From contig NC_012785.1 in NCBI RefSeq assembly GCF_000023325.1, forward strand, positions 124,001 through 188,000: 64,000 bases of DNA, read 5' to 3'. The position numbers were made by a program, and so were the translations under genes. Below the pieces are notes generated by a model that saw only the letters and a list, made by a program, of their open reading frames with translations, was not told the origin of the DNA and did not search any database. The stretch comes from Kosmotoga olearia TBF 19.5.1 (GTDB lineage Bacteria > Thermotogota > Thermotogae > Petrotogales > Kosmotogaceae). Positions 4,930 through 36,405 of this stretch are shown one piece after another (position 1 is the first letter of the stretch; every line of letters starts with the position of its first letter).

Positions 4930-5529
4930 AAATTTACGGAAGAAGCAAAAACCTATTGACTTTATACAAACTAGATCCAGAAGGATTCGAAAAAATATTG
5001 ATCGAGGCATTAAAAATCCTTATGACGACATTTTGATAAAACCAAACTACCCTGTAGATGATGAAGGAGAGCCCATCAATCATGCACCCGGTAATAAACC
5101 AGATACCGAGTGTTATTATAGAACATTCAAGGCTATATGTGAGGTAACCTTGAATACTTCTAATTTACAATGGGTACAAGAAGGGCAACCTGTGATGAGA
5201 CATCTAAGAAATTTCAAAAGAGAGCATGAATTTGAAAATATTTAGTCGCTCCAAGGATACATAAAGATACTTATTCCCAATTCTGGATTTCTGTAAAGTA
5301 CGAATATGATGGAAAACCCCAGAAGATAATTCCCTTAACCACACAACACTTTGCCCTGCTGCTAAAGAAACTACTACAATATATAGAAACAGGGAAAAAG
5401 TTCAGTCATTACGAATTACACAAATTATATGAGAAGATTATAAACGAAACAAAAAGGGTAAATAGTTTTTCCGAATGGACGAGAAAAATAGATCAACTTT
5501 TGGAATGTTGGATGGAGGAAAGAATATGA
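4930..5529 (+). pseudogene. AlwI-like type IIS restriction endonuclease, C-terminal remnant with frameshift
   Basis: The frame open up to TAG 5243 encodes a segment with DDEGEPINHAPGNKPD, CEVTLNTSNLQW and EGQPVMRHLRNF. After a shift the next frame resumes with APRIHKDTYSQFW and ends at TGA 5527-5529. As I recall the AlwI family, these are its conserved blocks (catalytic E-V-T-L region and the VMRHLR segment). The N-terminal part is missing and a frameshift near 5240 breaks the rest, so no active enzyme is expected. The final TGA overlaps the ATG of the next methyltransferase, which shows these genes once formed one operon. The family call is from memory; a profile search against RE_AlwI would settle it. 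Confidence 0.68.
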
Positions 5530-5751
5530 AAACAGGTCATATTTATAAAGGAGACTGCATAAAGGTAATGCGAGAACACATAAAAGATGAGAATATTGAT
5601 TTAATCTATGCCGATCCGCCTTACAATCTGTCTGGAAAAAGTCTTAATTTGATAAACAATAAAACTGGTGGCCCATTTTACAAAATGAATGAAGATTGGG
5701 ATACCTGGGACTATAATGAATATGTAGAATTTACAGAAAATTGGTTTGTAA
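5526..5751 (+). pseudogene. DNA adenine methyltransferase 1, N-terminal fragment (split by IS)
   Basis: Starting with ATG overlapping the endonuclease stop, this fragment carries the motif IV block YADPPYNLSGKS (about residues 34-45), typical of N6-adenine methyltransferases of the beta type. It continues to EYVEFTENWF, where the IS3-family element begins. The remainder, with the S-adenosylmethionine site, lies beyond the element at 6963-7546. Together the pieces would make a protein similar to the intact methyltransferase at 7539. Confidence 0.85.
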
Positions 5752-5777
5752 TGCTCCCCGAAAAACTGGACAAAAAA

Positions 5778-6606
5778 TCAAGCAATTTTGTGTAGACTCA
5801 TGGATTCTTCGAATATCTCTTTTGGGCTTTTGTATCCTAAAGCACTATGGGGATATTCTTCGTTATAAAACTTTTCAAAAGCTTTCGTCTTTTCGATTAG
5901 CTCTTCGTAACTCGGATTGTCCAATACCCATGCAACTTCTTCTTTGTATGTTCTGAAATACCTTTCCGTGTTGGCATTACCTTTGGGATTGTTGTAGCTC
6001 GTGAATATCTGTTTTATCCCAAGTACAGTACATTCTTTCAGGAACTTCGTGCTCGTTGGTTGGCTGCCGTTGTCGCTCACCAGTATTACTCCTTCGCCCC
6101 GCACACCTTCGGGATATCCCTCATTTAAGGCTCTGTCCAACGCTTTTAACCATTCTTCTGCTCTACACCTGAGACTTATTTCCGATCCAAGGATTTCTCT
6201 TGTGTACCAATCTATCACTGCTATGTAATATGCCCAACCAGCATCTCTTGTGAATACTTTTGTCATGTCGATCCCAAGCACCTCTCTGGGCCTGGTGGGC
6301 TTTATTTTCTTTTGAATGGTTCTACAAGCTTTTTTGTGCTCAACTTTGAAGAGTAATCCATTTTCTTTCATTATTCGGTATACCCTCTTTTGGTTGAGCT
6401 TATTGCCTTTTTTCCTCAACATCGCCCAGATTCGACGATATCCCCAGTAAGGATGCTCTCTTTTGAGTTCTTCTATTTCCTTGAATTTTTTCATCATCTG
6501 TTCTTCGACTGTATTCCCTAGGCTTGTAGTAATACGTGCTCCGGTTGATTTTCAAATACCTCAGCGCTTCTGAAACGCTGAATCCCTCATTAACAAGCAG
6601 TGCCAC
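5778..6606 (-). pseudogene. IS3-family transposase OrfB (DDE integrase), frameshifted
   Basis: The reading frame starting at GTG 6606 (ALLVNEGFSVSEALRYLKI, the typical OrfB start with STYYY) is lost at a T6 run (6486-6491 on the plus strand). The neighbouring frame continues to 5778. It carries HPYWGYRRI and the DDE triad region: GIDMTK, SDNGSQ and a Glu in NTERYFRTYKEE. Removing one base from the run restores a continuous OrfB. The copy is therefore probably inactive, unless the run causes slippage during expression. Domain content and length otherwise match a full-length OrfB. Confidence 0.82.
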
Positions 6607-6896
6607 TATTTCCCGTTGCCTGGATGTACTACTGTTTTTTTTAATGTCTCAATGACGATGGTCTGTTTCCCTATTACCTTCTCGAGTTCTTCTACTTTTT
6701 CTTCGAGCTGCTTTACCCTGGATTTCTTCCCGTTTTCCAAGCCTTCTTTGGCTCCTTCGAGAAACCTGTCACGCCATTTGTAATACTGAGCTTGTGAAAT
6801 TCCATGTTCTCTGCAGATTTGAGAAACGCTCTTTTCTCGACGAAGCCCTTCCAGAATTATTGCCATCTTTTCTTCTGTCGAGAGTTTCTTTGCCAT
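6606..6896 (-). CDS. IS3-family transposase OrfA (HTH protein)
   Basis: About 96 residues: a helix-turn-helix (SVSQICREHGISQAQYYKWR) followed by a leucine-zipper-like coiled coil (QLEEKVEELEKVIGKQ). OrfA binds the IS ends and, by -1 frameshifting, supplies the N-terminus of the OrfAB transposase. An A8 run (within ETLKK, near 6634-6641) is a good slippage site: a -1 shift there reads straight into the OrfB frame. I chose ATG 6896 because GGGGGTG precedes it. The stop shares its last G with the OrfB GTG. Confidence 0.85.
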   Translation of the reverse strand: MAKKLSTEEKMAIILEGLRREKSVSQICREHGISQAQYYKWRDRFLEGAKEGLENGKKSRVKQLEEKVEELEKVIGKQTIVIETLKKTVVHPGNGK

Positions 6897-6962
6897 TATC
6901 TGCACCCCCTTGCCTTTATTTTATCTCTCTACTTTTTTCCTGTCCAATTCTTCAGGGGAGCA

Positions 6963-7546
6963 GTATATGGTTAAAAGAAGCATGGAGAGTTTTAAAGTCT
7001 AACGTAAGTTTATATGTGTCATGTACATACCACAATATCGGAGAAATTATATTTTTGGCTAAGAAAATAGGTTTTAGATTAAATAACATAATTACGTGGT
7101 ATAAGACAAATGCAATGCCAAACATAACTAAACGTACTTTTACCCATTCTACTGAATATGTGTGTTGGTTTGTAAAAGGAAACAAGTGGAAATTCAATTA
7201 TGAAGAACTAAAGAAGATCAATCCTAATAAAAGAAAAGATGGAAAACCGAAGCAAATGAGGGATTTCCTGAATTTCATTGAGATGCCTATTGTTCAAGGA
7301 AAAGAGAGAATTAAAGGTGAAAATGGCAGAGCGATTCATCCTACACAAAAACCAGAGAAATTGCTAGAAATAATTATAATCGCATCATCCAATGAAGGGG
7401 ATATTGTTCTGGATCCTTTCTTTGGAACTGGAACAACAGGTGTTGTGGCTGAGAGATTGAATCGTAAATGGATAGGCATTGAAATAAATGAGAAATTTAT
7501 TAAAGTTGCAAAAAATAGAGTTTACGGAGGCATAGGACATGCTTAA
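6963..7546 (+). pseudogene. DNA adenine methyltransferase 1, C-terminal fragment
   Basis: In frame from the right edge of the IS, this piece reads WLKEAWRVLK, then TWYKTNAMPN, HPTQKPEKLLE and the S-adenosylmethionine motif DPFFGTGTTGVVA. These are the C-terminal blocks of the beta-type N6-adenine methyltransferase whose N-terminus is at 5526-5751. It has no start of its own. Its stop overlaps the next methyltransferase gene (ATGCTTAA), preserving the ancestral operon. Confidence 0.85.
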
Positions 7547-8291
7547 TATAAAACTTATTTTAGGGGACTGCATAGAGGAACTAAAAAAACTCGAAGCTGA
7601 AAGTGTAGATTTAATATTTGCGGATCCACCTTATAATCTATCAGGCGAAAACCATCTTACTGTACATGCAGGTAAACCAGTAAAACTCGATAAAGGCGAG
7701 TGGGATAAAATCGATAATATTCACGAATTTAATTTGAATTGGATAAAAGAATGTATCAGAGTTTTAAAGCCTCATGGAACAATATGGATCTCAGGGACAT
7801 TACATAATCATCCTTCCATAGGAATGGCCCTTAAACAACTTGGTTTATGGATAATTAATGATGTGGTCTGGTATAAACCAAATGCCACCCCACTTTTATC
7901 AAAAAACAGATTCGTTCCCTCAACTGAGATCATTTGGGTTGCAGGTAAAAGTAAGAAGTATTACTTCAACTATGAATTAGCAAAAGAAATGAACAAAGGA
8001 AAACAAATGAGAAATTTATGGACAATAAAAGCAAAAAGACATATAACTCCCCACCCCGCAGAAAAACCAGAAGAACTGCTGGAAAGAATAATCCTGATTG
8101 GTAGCAATGAAGCAGATACAATCCTGGATCCGTTTATGGGTTCAGGCACAACAGGTGTTGTAGCTAAAAGATATAATAGAAACTTCATAGGAATAGAAAT
8201 TAATCAAGAATATTTTGAATGGGCAAAAGAAAGAATTGAAAAAACGATCGTAAAACCATCTTTATTCGGGTCTATTAAAAAATCTGTGTAA
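7539..8291 (+). CDS. DNA adenine methyltransferase 2 (intact, orphaned)
   Basis: This 250-residue N6-adenine methyltransferase has motif IV first (FADPPYNLSG, about residues 29-38) and the S-adenosylmethionine motif DPFMGSGTTGVVA near 192-204, i.e. beta order. It overlaps the broken methyltransferase 1 by 8 nt. Type IIS systems of the AlwI kind need two adenine methylases, one per strand of an asymmetric site. This one would protect a single strand. With the endonuclease and the partner dead it is now an orphan methylase, perhaps kept for regulation or simply not yet decayed. The recognition site is unproven; a GGATC-like site is only an inference from the family. Confidence 0.9.
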   Translation: MLNIKLILGDCIEELKKLEAESVDLIFADPPYNLSGENHLTVHAGKPVKLDKGEWDKIDNIHEFNLNWIKECIRVLKPHGTIWISGTLHNHPSIGMALKQLGLWIINDVVWYKPNATPLLSKNRFVPSTEIIWVAGKSKKYYFNYELAKEMNKGKQMRNLWTIKAKRHITPHPAEKPEELLERIILIGSNEADTILDPFMGSGTTGVVAKRYNRNFIGIEINQEYFEWAKERIEKTIVKPSLFGSIKKSV

Positions 8292-8319
8292 ACTCTCTTT
8301 GTCCCGAGATTTGGGATTG

Positions 8320-8602
8320 GAGCGAACTCCTGGTAAGAATCCGAGAGTCCGAGAATCGAGAGGGCCGCTGTGCGGCGGATACGAATCCCTTCGGGATTGA
8401 CCCGAACTCCTTCGGAGTTGTCCCGAACCACTTCGTGGTTGTTCCGAACCGCAAGCGGTTGTTACGAACTCCTGGTAAGAATCGAGAGTCCGAGAACCGA
8501 GAGGGCCACTGCGTGGCGGATACGAATCCCTTCGGGATTGACACGAACTCCTTCGGAGTTGTTCCGAACCACTACGTGGTTGTCTCGAACCGCAAGCGGT
8601 TG
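8320..8602 (+). repeat. Array of short palindromic hairpin units (locus 1)
   Basis: Two blocks of four hairpins with roughly 21-bp period lie at 8384-8460 and 8524-8601. Stems are AATCCC/GGATT, AACTCC/GGAGTT, AACCAC/GTGGTT and AACCGC/GCGGTT, with TTCG, TACG or AAG loops and a constant YCG linker. Each block is preceded by a GCCGC/GCGGC-type or GCCAC/GTGGC hairpin (8364-8376, 8505-8517) and a GAGAGTCCGAGAA module. Stem bases vary in pairs, so base pairing is conserved rather than sequence. The open frames across it are artefacts of the repeats. No gene is present from 8292 to 9354. Confidence 0.9.
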
Positions 8603-8610
8603 AAAAAACT

Positions 8611-8682
8611 GTCATTCTGGAAATGTTCTATCCAGAATCTTGTTTTCTTAAGTACGGGATCCTGAATCAAGTTAAGGATGAC
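8611..8682 (-). repeat. MITE-like repeat copy A (72 bp, full length)
   Basis: This copy is bounded by GTCATTCTGG and CCTTAAGGATGAC-type ends and contains two internal hairpins (TTCTGGA...TCCAGAA and CCTGAA...TTCAGG forms). Full copies occur in the opposite orientation at 33633, 35835 and 35974, with partial ones at 31548 and 33212. It directly follows an AACCGC hairpin unit and GAAAAA, exactly as copy D does. Confidence 0.85.
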
Positions 8683-8694
8683 TAGTTAGACTCA

Positions 8695-8848
8695 AGAACT
8701 TAGAGTCCGAGAGTCCGAGAATCGAGAGGGTCGCTGTGCGGCTGGTGAGCACGCTGCGCGTGGGTAAGCCCTGCTACGCTGGGGGTAGTCTGGCTACATC
8801 AGGGGTGTGCACTCCTTCGGAGTTGTCCCGAACCACTTCGTGGTTGAA
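8695..8848 (+). repeat. Second hairpin module with GGGTAAGC linkers
   Basis: A GAGAGTCCGAGAATCGAGAG stretch leads into hairpins built from CACGC/GCGTG, CCCTGC...GGGG, CTGGC...CAG, AACTCC-like and AACCAC/GTGGTT stems. The same module, inverted and slightly diverged, lies at about 36055-36170. The remainder to 9000 shows nothing I recognise. Confidence 0.75.
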
Positions 8849-9040
8849 AGAGCAGGACGTTTGCGGAGGCAGTAAAAGCTAAAGAGCGAGATTGGATGTT
8901 GAAGATTGGATAGGGTGAACATACGATTTCACCTCTATTGCAGAAATTTACTTCAAGATTGCGGAAATATATTTCCGCAATAAAATGGTAGTGACTACAG
9001 TTTACTGATTACAGGAAAATGAAGCAGAACAGTCCACAAG

Positions 9041-9082
9041 GGAAAATGGGGACAGTCCACTGCGGTGCAGTCCCCATTTTCC
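9041..9082. repeat. Long perfect hairpin with GGGGACAGTCC core
   Basis: GGAAAATGGGGAC pairs perfectly with GTCCCCATTTTCC around AGTCCACTGCGGTGCA. The same core with a different stem extension occurs at 31501-31544. No T-run follows, so it is not an ordinary terminator. Confidence 0.8.
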
Positions 9083-33703: not shown

Positions 33704-33765
33704 AGCCTTTTTCAACCGCTTGCGGTTATCGAGTAGGAGGGGGGGAATCCCCCCGTCCTCTCACA

Positions 33766-33797
33766 GAACCGTGCGTACGGGCCAACGTACACGGCTC
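33766..33797 (-). ncRNA. Intron domain V (catalytic hairpin)
   Basis: GAGCCGTGTACG and CGTACGCACGGTTC form the two-part helix with the catalytic AGC-type triad and a bulge. It overlaps the reverse transcriptase stop codon by three bases. Confidence 0.85.
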
Positions 33798-35067
33798 ATG
33801 GATTGAGTATCGGATTCTCCGACAGTGGTACATGCGAAAGCTTCATATCATACAGCCCTATCTTCTGGAAATACTTGTTCGGCAGTAGCCTACTGACCAA
33901 CCGGGATTGAGAGCTTCTCCATTTGTTCATCCTTATTCCAGATATTTCGCCTCTGTATCCTTTTTGTCTCATCACCCTGCATAGTTTCTTTGTCGTCTTC
34001 CATTGTCGCAGGATTATGGCTCTCAATCTCCTTCTTATCCAACCCATGAGGCCTTTGAATACTCCCACCCAATCGATTATTTTGTAGTAATTGCTGAAGC
34101 CTCTCAGCAATTGGTTTAGCCGTTTTATTATCTCTCCAATCGGTGTACATTGGTTTCTCCGGGTGAGTGTTTTTACTTTCGCTTTGAACCTTTTTATTTT
34201 CTTTTCCTGGATTCGTATTTTGCCTTTTTGTATGGTAAATCCAAGGAATTCGATTCCATCATCTATCGTGGTTATTCTCGTCTTTTCTTTGTTGACCTTC
34301 AATTTCAGCTCTTTTTCCAGTATCCGGATAGCTATTTTTAGGTATTTTTCCGCGCTTTTGTAGCTCTTTGCGAAGATTAGTATGTCGTCTGCATATCTCA
34401 CTATCCTTATTCCTCTGGCCATCATTTTCTGGTCAAATTTGTTCAGATAGATGTTGGCTAACAAGGGGCTTATTACTCCGCCCTGTGGACTTCCCATCTC
34501 ACTGGGTTGGTATTGGTCCGTTATGACTCCACTTTTGAGGAAACTTCTTATTAATCTCAATATTTTGCCATCGCTTATTCTTTCCGCTACTGCGTCTATC
34601 ATCTTTTCGTGGTCTAAGGTGTCAAAGCATTGACTAAGGTCTAACTGTACCACGTATTTCATTTTGTATTTGCACGCGAAGGCATAGGCTTTCTCTACTG
34701 CCTGGTGTGGATTCCTTCCTTTCCTGTATCCATAACTTGAAGGATGAAATCCTTCCTCAAAGATTGGTTCCATTATTTCTTTCAGCGATTGTTGTACTAT
34801 TCGATCCTCTACCGTCGGTATCCCGAGCATACGTGTCTTCCCATTTCCTTTCGGGATTTCTACCCTTTTTACCGGTGAAGGCCGGTATTCTCCTTTTCGC
34901 AACTTTTCGCTGAGTTTCTTAATCCTTTCCAGAAGGTTTTCTCCATACTCCTGAACCGTTACTCCATCTATCCCGGGTGCTCCGTTGTTTCTTCGCACCT
35001 TGTGATATGCTTTGGCCAGGTTCGATTCCAGATAAACTTTGTCAATAAGACTGTAGTACTTCCTCAT
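33796..35067 (-). CDS. ltrA: Group II intron reverse transcriptase/maturase
   Basis: 423 residues: N-terminal RT0-RT7 blocks including NNGAPGIDGVTV, LGIPTVEDRIVQQ, QLDLSQCFDTLDH, SPQGGVISPLLAN and the active-site YADD. The maturase (X) domain with LRGFSNYYKI and WIRRRLRAIILRQWK follows. There is no endonuclease domain, as usual for class C introns, which target stem-loops. The protein splices its intron and copies it into DNA. All active-site residues are present, so the element may still be mobile. Confidence 0.95.
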   Translation of the reverse strand: MRKYYSLIDKVYLESNLAKAYHKVRRNNGAPGIDGVTVQEYGENLLERIKKLSEKLRKGEYRPSPVKRVEIPKGNGKTRMLGIPTVEDRIVQQSLKEIMEPIFEEGFHPSSYGYRKGRNPHQAVEKAYAFACKYKMKYVVQLDLSQCFDTLDHEKMIDAVAERISDGKILRLIRSFLKSGVITDQYQPSEMGSPQGGVISPLLANIYLNKFDQKMMARGIRIVRYADDILIFAKSYKSAEKYLKIAIRILEKELKLKVNKEKTRITTIDDGIEFLGFTIQKGKIRIQEKKIKRFKAKVKTLTRRNQCTPIGEIIKRLNQLLRGFSNYYKIIDWVGVFKGLMGWIRRRLRAIILRQWKTTKKLCRVMRQKGYRGEISGIRMNKWRSSQSRLVSRLLPNKYFQKIGLYDMKLSHVPLSENPILNP

Positions 35068-35720
35068 GTTTCCTCCTGTATGGCCTTCCGGATAAGTCGC
35101 ATATAACAGAATCGGTTTCTTCTCCCATCCAAAGATTGGATTCTTTACCCCCCCCGGGAATCTTCCTATCTTTGCAATGGTTACTTACCTGCCCCGGCTA
35201 TTCTCAACCGTCGTTAGCATTTCAGCCTCCGTTACGGACTCCTGTTATACTCGCTTCCCTTTGTGCCATTTCCTCAATCCTTCCCCCCTTCGCAAGTAAC
35301 AGGCCCTTTCGGTTCCTGTTACCCCCATCGCTCAAGGCGATAGTCCCTTCTCCTTTCAGAGAGGTTCAACACTACTACGGGTTCATCTGCCATCCTCCTC
35401 CGCTTTACCGGTCCTTGGGTCTCCCCTTGTTCCGGCTTACCCATTTTGGGACGAGTGAGGACTTCCCCGGGTAAGACATACAGCTTTCATCCGAATCCTG
35501 CCATCCAAACCTGTAGAGTTGGAGCTCGGGCTTACCCATTCTCGGCAAGGTTACCCACTCTACCGGCCAACACTGGTTCACTTTCGTTCAGTTCCGGATT
35601 TTGCCTTAGGCTTCCTTCAGATTCACCGTTACCAGTGACACCCTTGCCCTCAGCTAATGCTTATTTCGCTCCCCGCATTCGGGACTTTCACCCTATAGTT
35701 GTATGTCATGCCGGGCACAC

Positions 35721-35834
35721 CGCGACAACTCCGCAGGAGTTCGTAACACCGGCGTAGCAGGTCGTAACAATCCCGAAGGGATTCGTGTCGCCGCGCAGCG
35801 GCTACCGGTTCACGAATCTCGATTCCCGTCACCT
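35721..35834 (-). repeat. Hairpin array (locus 2), 5' exon side of the intron
   Basis: Read on the minus strand this is the same unit series as locus 1: a CCGC/GCGG-type hairpin, AATCCC-TTCG-GGATT, ACCTGC-TAC-GCCGGT and AACTCC-TGC-GGAGTT, then TCGCG and the intron. The linkers again end in YCG or ACG before each AAC. The hairpin adjoining the splice site is the type of structure recognised by class C introns. Confidence 0.88.
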
Positions 35835-36054: not shown

Positions 36055-36405
36055 CACCCCAAAGGAGTGCACACCCCTGACGTAGTCAGGCTTACCCCCA
36101 GCGTAGCAGAGCTTACCCACGCGCAGCGTGCTCACCAGCCGCACAGCGGCCCTCTCGGTTCTCGGACTCTCGGACTCTCGATTCTTACCAGGAGTTCGTG
36201 TCAACCGCTTGCAGTTCGTGTCGCTTTATTAACTGACAGCGTCTGCAAGCCTCAGCCTCGCAAGCGTCGCTCCACCAGTTGACAGCCTCTGCAAGCGGCC
36301 TGCTCTTTCAACCAAAAGTGGTTCGAGACAACTCAGGATGAGTTCGCTCCACCGGCGCAGCCGGTCGTGCCCGCTGCGAAGCAGCTCTCTCGAACTCTCG
36401 GTCTT
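36055..36405 (-). repeat. Hairpin modules and 43-bp repeat copy (locus 2)
   Basis: On the minus strand the stretch 36055-36210 repeats the module of 8695-8820: GCCGC hairpin, CACGC/GCGTG hairpin, GGGTAAGC linkers and CTGACTACGTCAGG. A GAGAGTCCGAGAA block and a GAACTCCTGGTAAGAATC block follow. 36265-36300 is a diverged copy of the 43-bp direct repeat of 9114. The run ends at the stop codon of the DUF2207 gene. No gene is present from 35721 to 36408. Confidence 0.8.

Follow-up and report, generated by a model that had tools for sequence, protein, structure and literature searches.

The window analyzed here is a stretch of 64,000 nucleotides from Kosmotoga olearia TBF 19.5.1 (contig NC_012785.1, forward-strand positions 124,001 to 188,000). 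It contains several blocks of short hairpins and a group II intron that interrupts one of them; the coordinates are collected in Table 1. At 8320-8602, two ca. 141-bp copies that match each other at 92% (TRF) lie in tandem, and each is composed of a header and five hairpins. The stems of these hairpins are GCCGC/GCGGC or GCCAC/GTGGC (5 bp), AATCCC/GGGATT, AACTCC/GGAGTT, AACCAC/GTGGTT, and AACCGC/GCGGTT; in the window, the loop of the AACCGC unit is AA (or CAAG). A sequence-only reading had described arrays of 21-bp hairpin units at this place, with further copies at 35721-35834, 8695-8848, and 36055-36170. The arrays were found to be far above chance, the further copies were recovered as blocks, and an additional block was located at about 36311-36386 on the minus strand. 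Directly ahead of block 1, the interval 5475-8291 begins with a fragment of a methylase start (5475-5792) and an rve integrase-core transposase ORF on the opposite strand (5778-6497), followed by N6/N4 methylase ORFs at 6794-7546 and 7539-8291. This arrangement looks like an insertion sequence beside or within a methylase gene. A lysine riboswitch is present at 208-382 on the minus strand (Rfam RF00168, 96.4 bits).

Table 1. Hairpin blocks, intron, and associated features of the window.
Feature	Position	Strand	Remarks
Header repeat CGAACTCCTGGTAAGAATCCGAGAGTCCGAGAATCGAGAGG, block 1	8323-8363	+	Recurs ahead of many blocks
Block 1, five hairpins	8364-8460	+	Hairpins at 8364-8376, 8384-8398, 8405-8419, 8426-8440, 8447-8460
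Block 2, five hairpins	8505-8601	+	Hairpins at 8505-8517, 8525-8539, 8546-8560, 8567-8581, 8588-8601; 92% tandem copy of block 1
Block 3, GGTGAG/GGTAAG linkers	8695-8845	+	CACGC, degenerate CCCTGC and CTGG, ACTCC, and AACCAC units
Group II (IIC-like) intron	33728-35720	-	Separates linker GTCGCG from the following hairpin; both ends match Rfam (RF02001 and RF00029)
Intron-encoded reverse transcriptase/maturase	33796-35067	-	No endonuclease domain found
Hairpin unit AACCGCaaGCGGTT	33714-33727	-	Abuts the intron 3' end; other half of the interrupted block
Block 4	35721-35834	-	AACTCC (35727-35741), degenerate ACCTGC, AATCCC (35769-35783), GCCGC; terminates at the intron 5' end
Block 5, GGTGAG/GGTAAG-linker type	36055-36170	-	Header repeat present
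Block 6, absent from the sequence-only reading	about 36311-36386	-	GCTGC, ACCGGC (36351), AACTCA (36330), and AACCA/TGGTT hairpins

The repeating unit consists of a hairpin of 15 nt, with a 6-bp stem and a 3-nt loop, and a 6-nt linker, for a period of 21. In most units the linker conforms to G-W-Y-N-C-G, ending in G. The stems belong to five recurrent types with a favored order, B (AATCCC), C (AACTCC), D (AACCAC), and E (AACTGC or AACCGC), and a shorter GCCGC or GCTGC hairpin often precedes the B-C-D-E series. The succession counts reflect this order: C was followed by D 40 times and by E 17 times, D by E 29 times and by C once, and B by C 24 times. The units inside one block are arranged head to tail. 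Direct repeats with palindromic units resemble a CRISPR array, but that identity was rejected, as it had been from the sequence: unique spacers are absent, and the 6-nt linkers belong to the repeat (76 types among 364 perfect units, common to different blocks).

The hairpin pattern was confirmed as real and not attributable to chance. The frame pattern GAAYNNCTNCGNNRTTG had 258 matches genome-wide, compared to 5 for its reversed form. In the window, the count of perfect 6-bp units in the G...G frame with a T-N-Y loop was seven on the plus strand and five on the minus strand, versus none on either strand of the reversed sequence. Stretches positioned 21 bp after a perfect unit, which were not chosen for pairing, had at least five of six pairs in 144 of 215 cases, and those 21 bp before a perfect unit in 170 of 215; at the off-register offsets of +10, -10, +31, and +15, the corresponding numbers were 2, 0, 4, and 2 of 215. 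When left halves were used as seeds (GAAYNNCTNCG, n = 259), each of the first five pairs was completed by the right half in 231-243 instances.

Co-variation was evaluated in 120 distinct hairpin windows (95 from this genome and 38 from relatives, the latter each chained to a perfect unit), to which a loop filter but no pairing filter had been applied. In this set, 87.5% of the cells were paired, compared to 60% after shuffling. Cells in which both bases departed from the commonest pair numbered 204 versus 57 in the shuffles (maximum 81, 500 shuffles); the shuffling carries no correction for shared descent, kinship of unit types inflates these counts, and the co-varying cells are non-independent events because many stems represent whole unit types. 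Perfect stems numbered 22 among the 120 windows, and the number of pair types (22) was not above that of the shuffles (maximum 22-23). Paired change was also present within types: AACTCC, AACTCT, and AACTCA occupy comparable places in blocks, and GCCGC, GCCAC, GCTGC, and GTTGC occupy the first place. The earlier claim that stem changes preserve pairing was thus upheld in this genome and its relatives.

The loop differs from that first proposed. A TTCG-type loop had been assigned from the sequence, and this assignment did not survive; the loop is a T-N-C triloop. Among the 144 paired windows at +21, base 1 was T in 143, base 3 was C in 127, and the middle base was free (TTC 76, TGC 32, TAC 14, TTT 9, TGT 7, TCC 4, others 2). 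The full T-N-C form was present in 126 of the 144. The loops of the relatives, for which T-N-Y was demanded by the filter, were T-N-C in 27 of 34 and T-N-T in 7 of 34. A UUCG tetraloop was rejected, as cUUCGg is impossible in AACCAC or AACTGC units unless the stem is broken. The complementary strand of a T-N-C unit reads C-GNA-G, and a C-G pair closes the stable GNA minihairpins. DNA minihairpins with GNA trinucleotide loops are very stable (Yoshizawa 1997, cited in an excerpt of PMC6479982). The folding program and its energy model assigned equal stability to both strands of the unit, and the GNA-stability argument therefore rests on the sequence and on the printed work.

Unit sequence was inspected in ca. 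264 kb around the pattern matches (ca. 11% of the genome), and this portion yielded at least 72 merged loci, at least 119 chains, and at least 401 units; the loci are listed more densely below about 1.39 Mb (plus strand) and 1.5 Mb (minus strand), and the locus counts are lower bounds. A chain at 887454 that belongs to another family was left out, such that 119 of 120 chains were kept in the locus count. Chains (two or more units each) fell outside mechanically called ORFs in 117 of 120 cases, and one of the three exceptions was the chain of the other family. The many intergenic loci and the co-variation to which the sequence-only reading had looked for support were both found. The blocks occur in local clusters, and their orientation along the chromosome switched 29 times compared to 36 expected (p 0.06). 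CGTC-type REP dimers lie directly behind many blocks (L017, L018, L038, and others); the intergenic mosaics thus combine at least three repeat families.

The pattern was searched in 103 genomes of the phylum with the reversed pattern as a control. Strong enrichment was found only in the K. olearia genome itself (G000, 258 matches versus 5 for the control). The next genomes were G002 (30 versus 6), G003 (11 versus 3), G004 (11 versus 1), G001 (7 versus 1), and G018 (10 versus 3), and the remainder of the 103 had 0-5 matches, the same as the controls. In the relatives G002, G003, and G004, the linkers are different (GTTATG, GCCATG, GCTATG), as are some of the stems. A block was found in each of three sister genomes of one genus (G005, G010, and G011), apparently at one shared place. 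A near-identical copy of ca. 8250-8850 of the window, together with the methylase gene end, is present in G001:C111 (L047, another genus) and in G018:C46 (L150, another family); these copies could be either misbinned contigs or the result of transfer.

These data bear on the alternative that the stems are kept by copying, i.e. by template correction of quasi-palindromes at the fork or by conversion between arms, with no selection or recognition, and that spread is due to ordinary duplication and recombination between repeats. Such a process would account for the predominance of perfect palindromes (127 windows with six of six pairs versus 17 with five of six, from 161 with at least three), for the 141-bp tandem pair at 8320-8602, and for the local clustering of blocks. 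It offers no means of preserving an unpaired loop, yet the first and third loop positions hardly vary, the middle base being free, and the same loop is found in the relatives despite other stems and linkers. Furthermore, the 72 or more loci across the genome require some dispersal. We regard this explanation as unlikely, albeit the best of the rivals.

Eleven intron copies with a 5' end were found in this genome, plus one 95-bp partial match. In all 11, the 5' end is located 6-7 nt behind a hairpin unit; as background, a hairpin of at least 5 bp ends 5-7 nt upstream of 1.1% of the positions in the window. Ten of the copies are on the T-N-C strand and one is on the other. The 3' end was located at the expected distance in 4 of the 11 copies and was not found there in the other 7; of the four located ends, three continue into a unit (one degenerate) and one into an inverted header repeat. 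The unit AACCGCaaGCGGTT immediately follows the window intron, which places the insertion exactly at the junction of the 6-nt linker and the next hairpin. Group IIC introns need an upstream stem-loop (excerpt of PMC7923331), and the hairpin upstream, together with the result that no endonuclease domain was found, suggests a IIC-like class. The folds stay intact while the sequences change, and every full intron 5' end found in this genome lies directly behind a hairpin; the blocks therefore resemble mobile repeats with a role as folded single-stranded DNA.

Related introns in G005 and G007 are 85-88% identical to that of the window and are positioned behind a CGTC-type hairpin. This hairpin was perfect ahead of 6 of 6 intron copies in G007 and ahead of 7 of the 9 inspected in G005, which has 18 near-full copies. 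In the K. olearia genome, CGTC palindromes served as the intron site in 0 of 11 copies. An association of group II introns with REPs is tabulated for P. putida in 2 of 9 cases (excerpt of PMC1525189), which provides a precedent for the principle of introns at REPs. No description of an intron lineage that switches from one hairpin family to another was found in the open-licence PMC literature.

A second alternative is that the blocks act as RNA, either as 3'-UTR hairpins against exonucleases, as cut sites, or as terminators of the upstream gene. The gene upstream is co-directional with the block in 70 of 116 chains; among the 113 chains with neighbors on both sides, 40 have convergent, 50 same-direction, and 23 divergent genes, and the units fold as RNA too. 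Against these points, the preference for one strand is weak and comes from non-independent chains, a T-run is missing after most blocks, the introns occupy both strands, and the loop is no known stable RNA tetraloop. The units also had no Rfam match, and a known RNA family was rejected for this reason. A role as RNA is accordingly judged improbable, more so than maintenance by copying.

A third alternative, scarcely credible, derives the hairpins from a decayed integron in which they would have been attC-like recombination sites. The simple-site motif of attC is RYYYAAC...GTTRRRY. The units have AAC...GTT arms and precede group II introns, an arrangement known from the IIC-attC introns, but the motif pair was present in 0 of 364 units (the excerpt of PMC7923331, which describes those introns, prints the first half as RYYYACC). 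No integron integrase exceeded the cut-off (best 71 bits versus 265), and no gene cassettes were seen. A coding repeat was rejected because no reading frame survives the mixture of 13-, 14-, and 15-nt hairpins and because 117 of the 120 chains fall outside called ORFs; a phage or plasmid origin was rejected on the lack of a blastn match.

The K. olearia genome encodes two Y1_Tnp genes that are 95% identical; one RAYT-type gene is at 1341659-1342366 on the minus strand. The RAYT-type proteins scored 56-63 bits against Pfam Y1_Tnp (cut-off 23), and their best NCBIfam model was REP_Tyr_transpos at 64-72 bits, under its cut-off of 80. The N-H-V-H (HUH) motif was invariant in eight of eight aligned RAYT-type proteins; searches of the PDB with them gave 0 matches. 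Remnants of units are situated directly 3' of both genes, with a full five-hairpin block behind the first, and no units were seen 5' of the genes in the stretches inspected. Given the 95% identity of the two copies, the association of RAYT genes and blocks amounts to about two independent events. The only block found in each of G010 and G011 is just downstream of a remnant of a RAYT C-terminus (hmmsearch domain E about 3e-14); in G008 this remnant recurs, accompanied by just the first hairpin. By eye, the remnant looks closer to the Kosmotoga-type C-terminus than to the intact genes in the genus that carries it. No block was found behind the RAYT-type gene of G003, and no RAYT remnant accompanies the block of G005. 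In 80 RAYT loci of other phyla, no block was detected (nhmmer with a block profile, E 0.01). No relative emerged when a window protein or the RAYT alignment was used to scan viral sequences. The RAYT elements carry another palindrome, GGGGACAGTCC..., which could be the real RAYT substrate.

It had been stated from the sequence that no family of this form is described. This holds for the exact hairpin-block form, of which no description was found in the open-licence PMC literature, and the REP head motifs are missing; the blocks nonetheless fall into the broad class of REP/BIME-like palindromes, beside RAYT-type genes and as group II intron sites. REPs are short extragenic palindromes beside a Y1/HUH transposase, and the hairpin is recognized as single-stranded DNA in the cases studied (excerpts of PMC2817692 and PMC8266576). 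The blocks share with GTAG-type REPs, BIMEs, and RAYTs the high-copy extragenic palindromes (258 versus 5 matches), the composite arrangement, and the adjoining Y1/HUH transposase gene. They differ in having several stem types per block and no GTAG/GTGG head: a GT(A/G)G head next to the hairpin was found in 2 (top strand) and 3 (bottom strand) of 364 perfect units. Whereas RAYT genes lie between two inverted REPs, the minihairpin blocks were found solely 3' of the gene, and whereas REPs alternate in BIMEs, the minihairpin units run head to tail.

Both K. olearia and M. prima are reported to carry CGTC-3 REPs (excerpt of PMC3733652), with which 65 rows of CGTC-type palindromes at 64 places in this genome (one listed on both strands) are consistent. 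Like the blocks, these palindromes are dispersed in the same genome, where they often adjoin blocks, and they serve as intron sites in the sister genomes. Their 8-bp stem, 5-nt loop, CGTC head, and single main sequence type are not shared by the blocks; a CGTC head was found on 0 of 364 units on the top strand and 14 of 364 on the bottom. CGTC-type REPs are defined by stems of 8-9 bp and loops of 4-5 nt in addition to this head, whereas the units have 6 bp and 3 nt. Since both the GTAG and CGTC heads are absent, the blocks were not classed as classical REPs. The known targets of group IIC introns, terminator stem-loops and attC, resemble the present ones in placing a stem-loop a few nt upstream of the insertion (excerpt of PMC7923331), but the target here is a dispersed tandem hairpin repeat.

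On balance, we favor the explanation that the blocks constitute a dispersed repeat, REP-like and non-autonomous, of head-to-tail minihairpins acting as folded single-stranded DNA, which was spread by a RAYT-type transposase and then adopted by introns. The fold and loop are conserved while the stems change, the blocks are amplified and mostly intergenic, and introns use them. The unit is most likely a single-strand DNA hairpin recognized via its loop and fold. A RAYT-type transposase, present or lost, would have recognized the triloop hairpins on one strand and dispersed the blocks as whole units, and the intron lineage would later have taken the abundant hairpin as its insertion site. We infer the RAYT-type enzyme as the mover, the strand read, and the order of events by analogy with the TnpA-REP enzymes, which bind single-stranded DNA hairpins strand-specifically; the 3-nt loop is critical for the Stenotrophomonas enzyme (excerpt of PMC8266576). 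A wider and more tentative proposal is that the triloop rule (C-GNA-G, one strand) may unite the family, with a RAYT enzyme that would read the loop and ignore the stem, and with a IIC intron lineage that would re-target to another dispersed hairpin per host genus, a CGTC REP in one and the minihairpin block in the other, thereby living harmlessly on REP-type repeats.

The K. olearia genome bears on how REP-like palindromes spread and on whether enzymes read their fold rather than their sequence. It offers hundreds of natural variants in which the stem is changed and the loop is kept, with a candidate enzyme gene adjoining. The intron family provides an independent readout, as it finds these hairpins in vivo, and in sister genomes the relatives of this intron settle behind a different one. 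Recognition of single-stranded DNA hairpins by their structure thus becomes directly testable in a non-pathogenic thermophile.

Behind RAYT copy 2 (L124, G000 1353600-1357900), near 1355100, a long perfect palindrome is situated beside a unit; it matches the intron 3' end as an inverted duplicate and represents a truncated intron remnant. A second dispersed palindrome, GAAAATGGGGACAGTCC...GGACTGTCCCCATTTTC, was found at 9010-9060 of the window and at L036 and L041; it occurs near RAYT ends, within a RAYT gene, and beside blocks, and is possibly the RAYT element's own terminal repeat.
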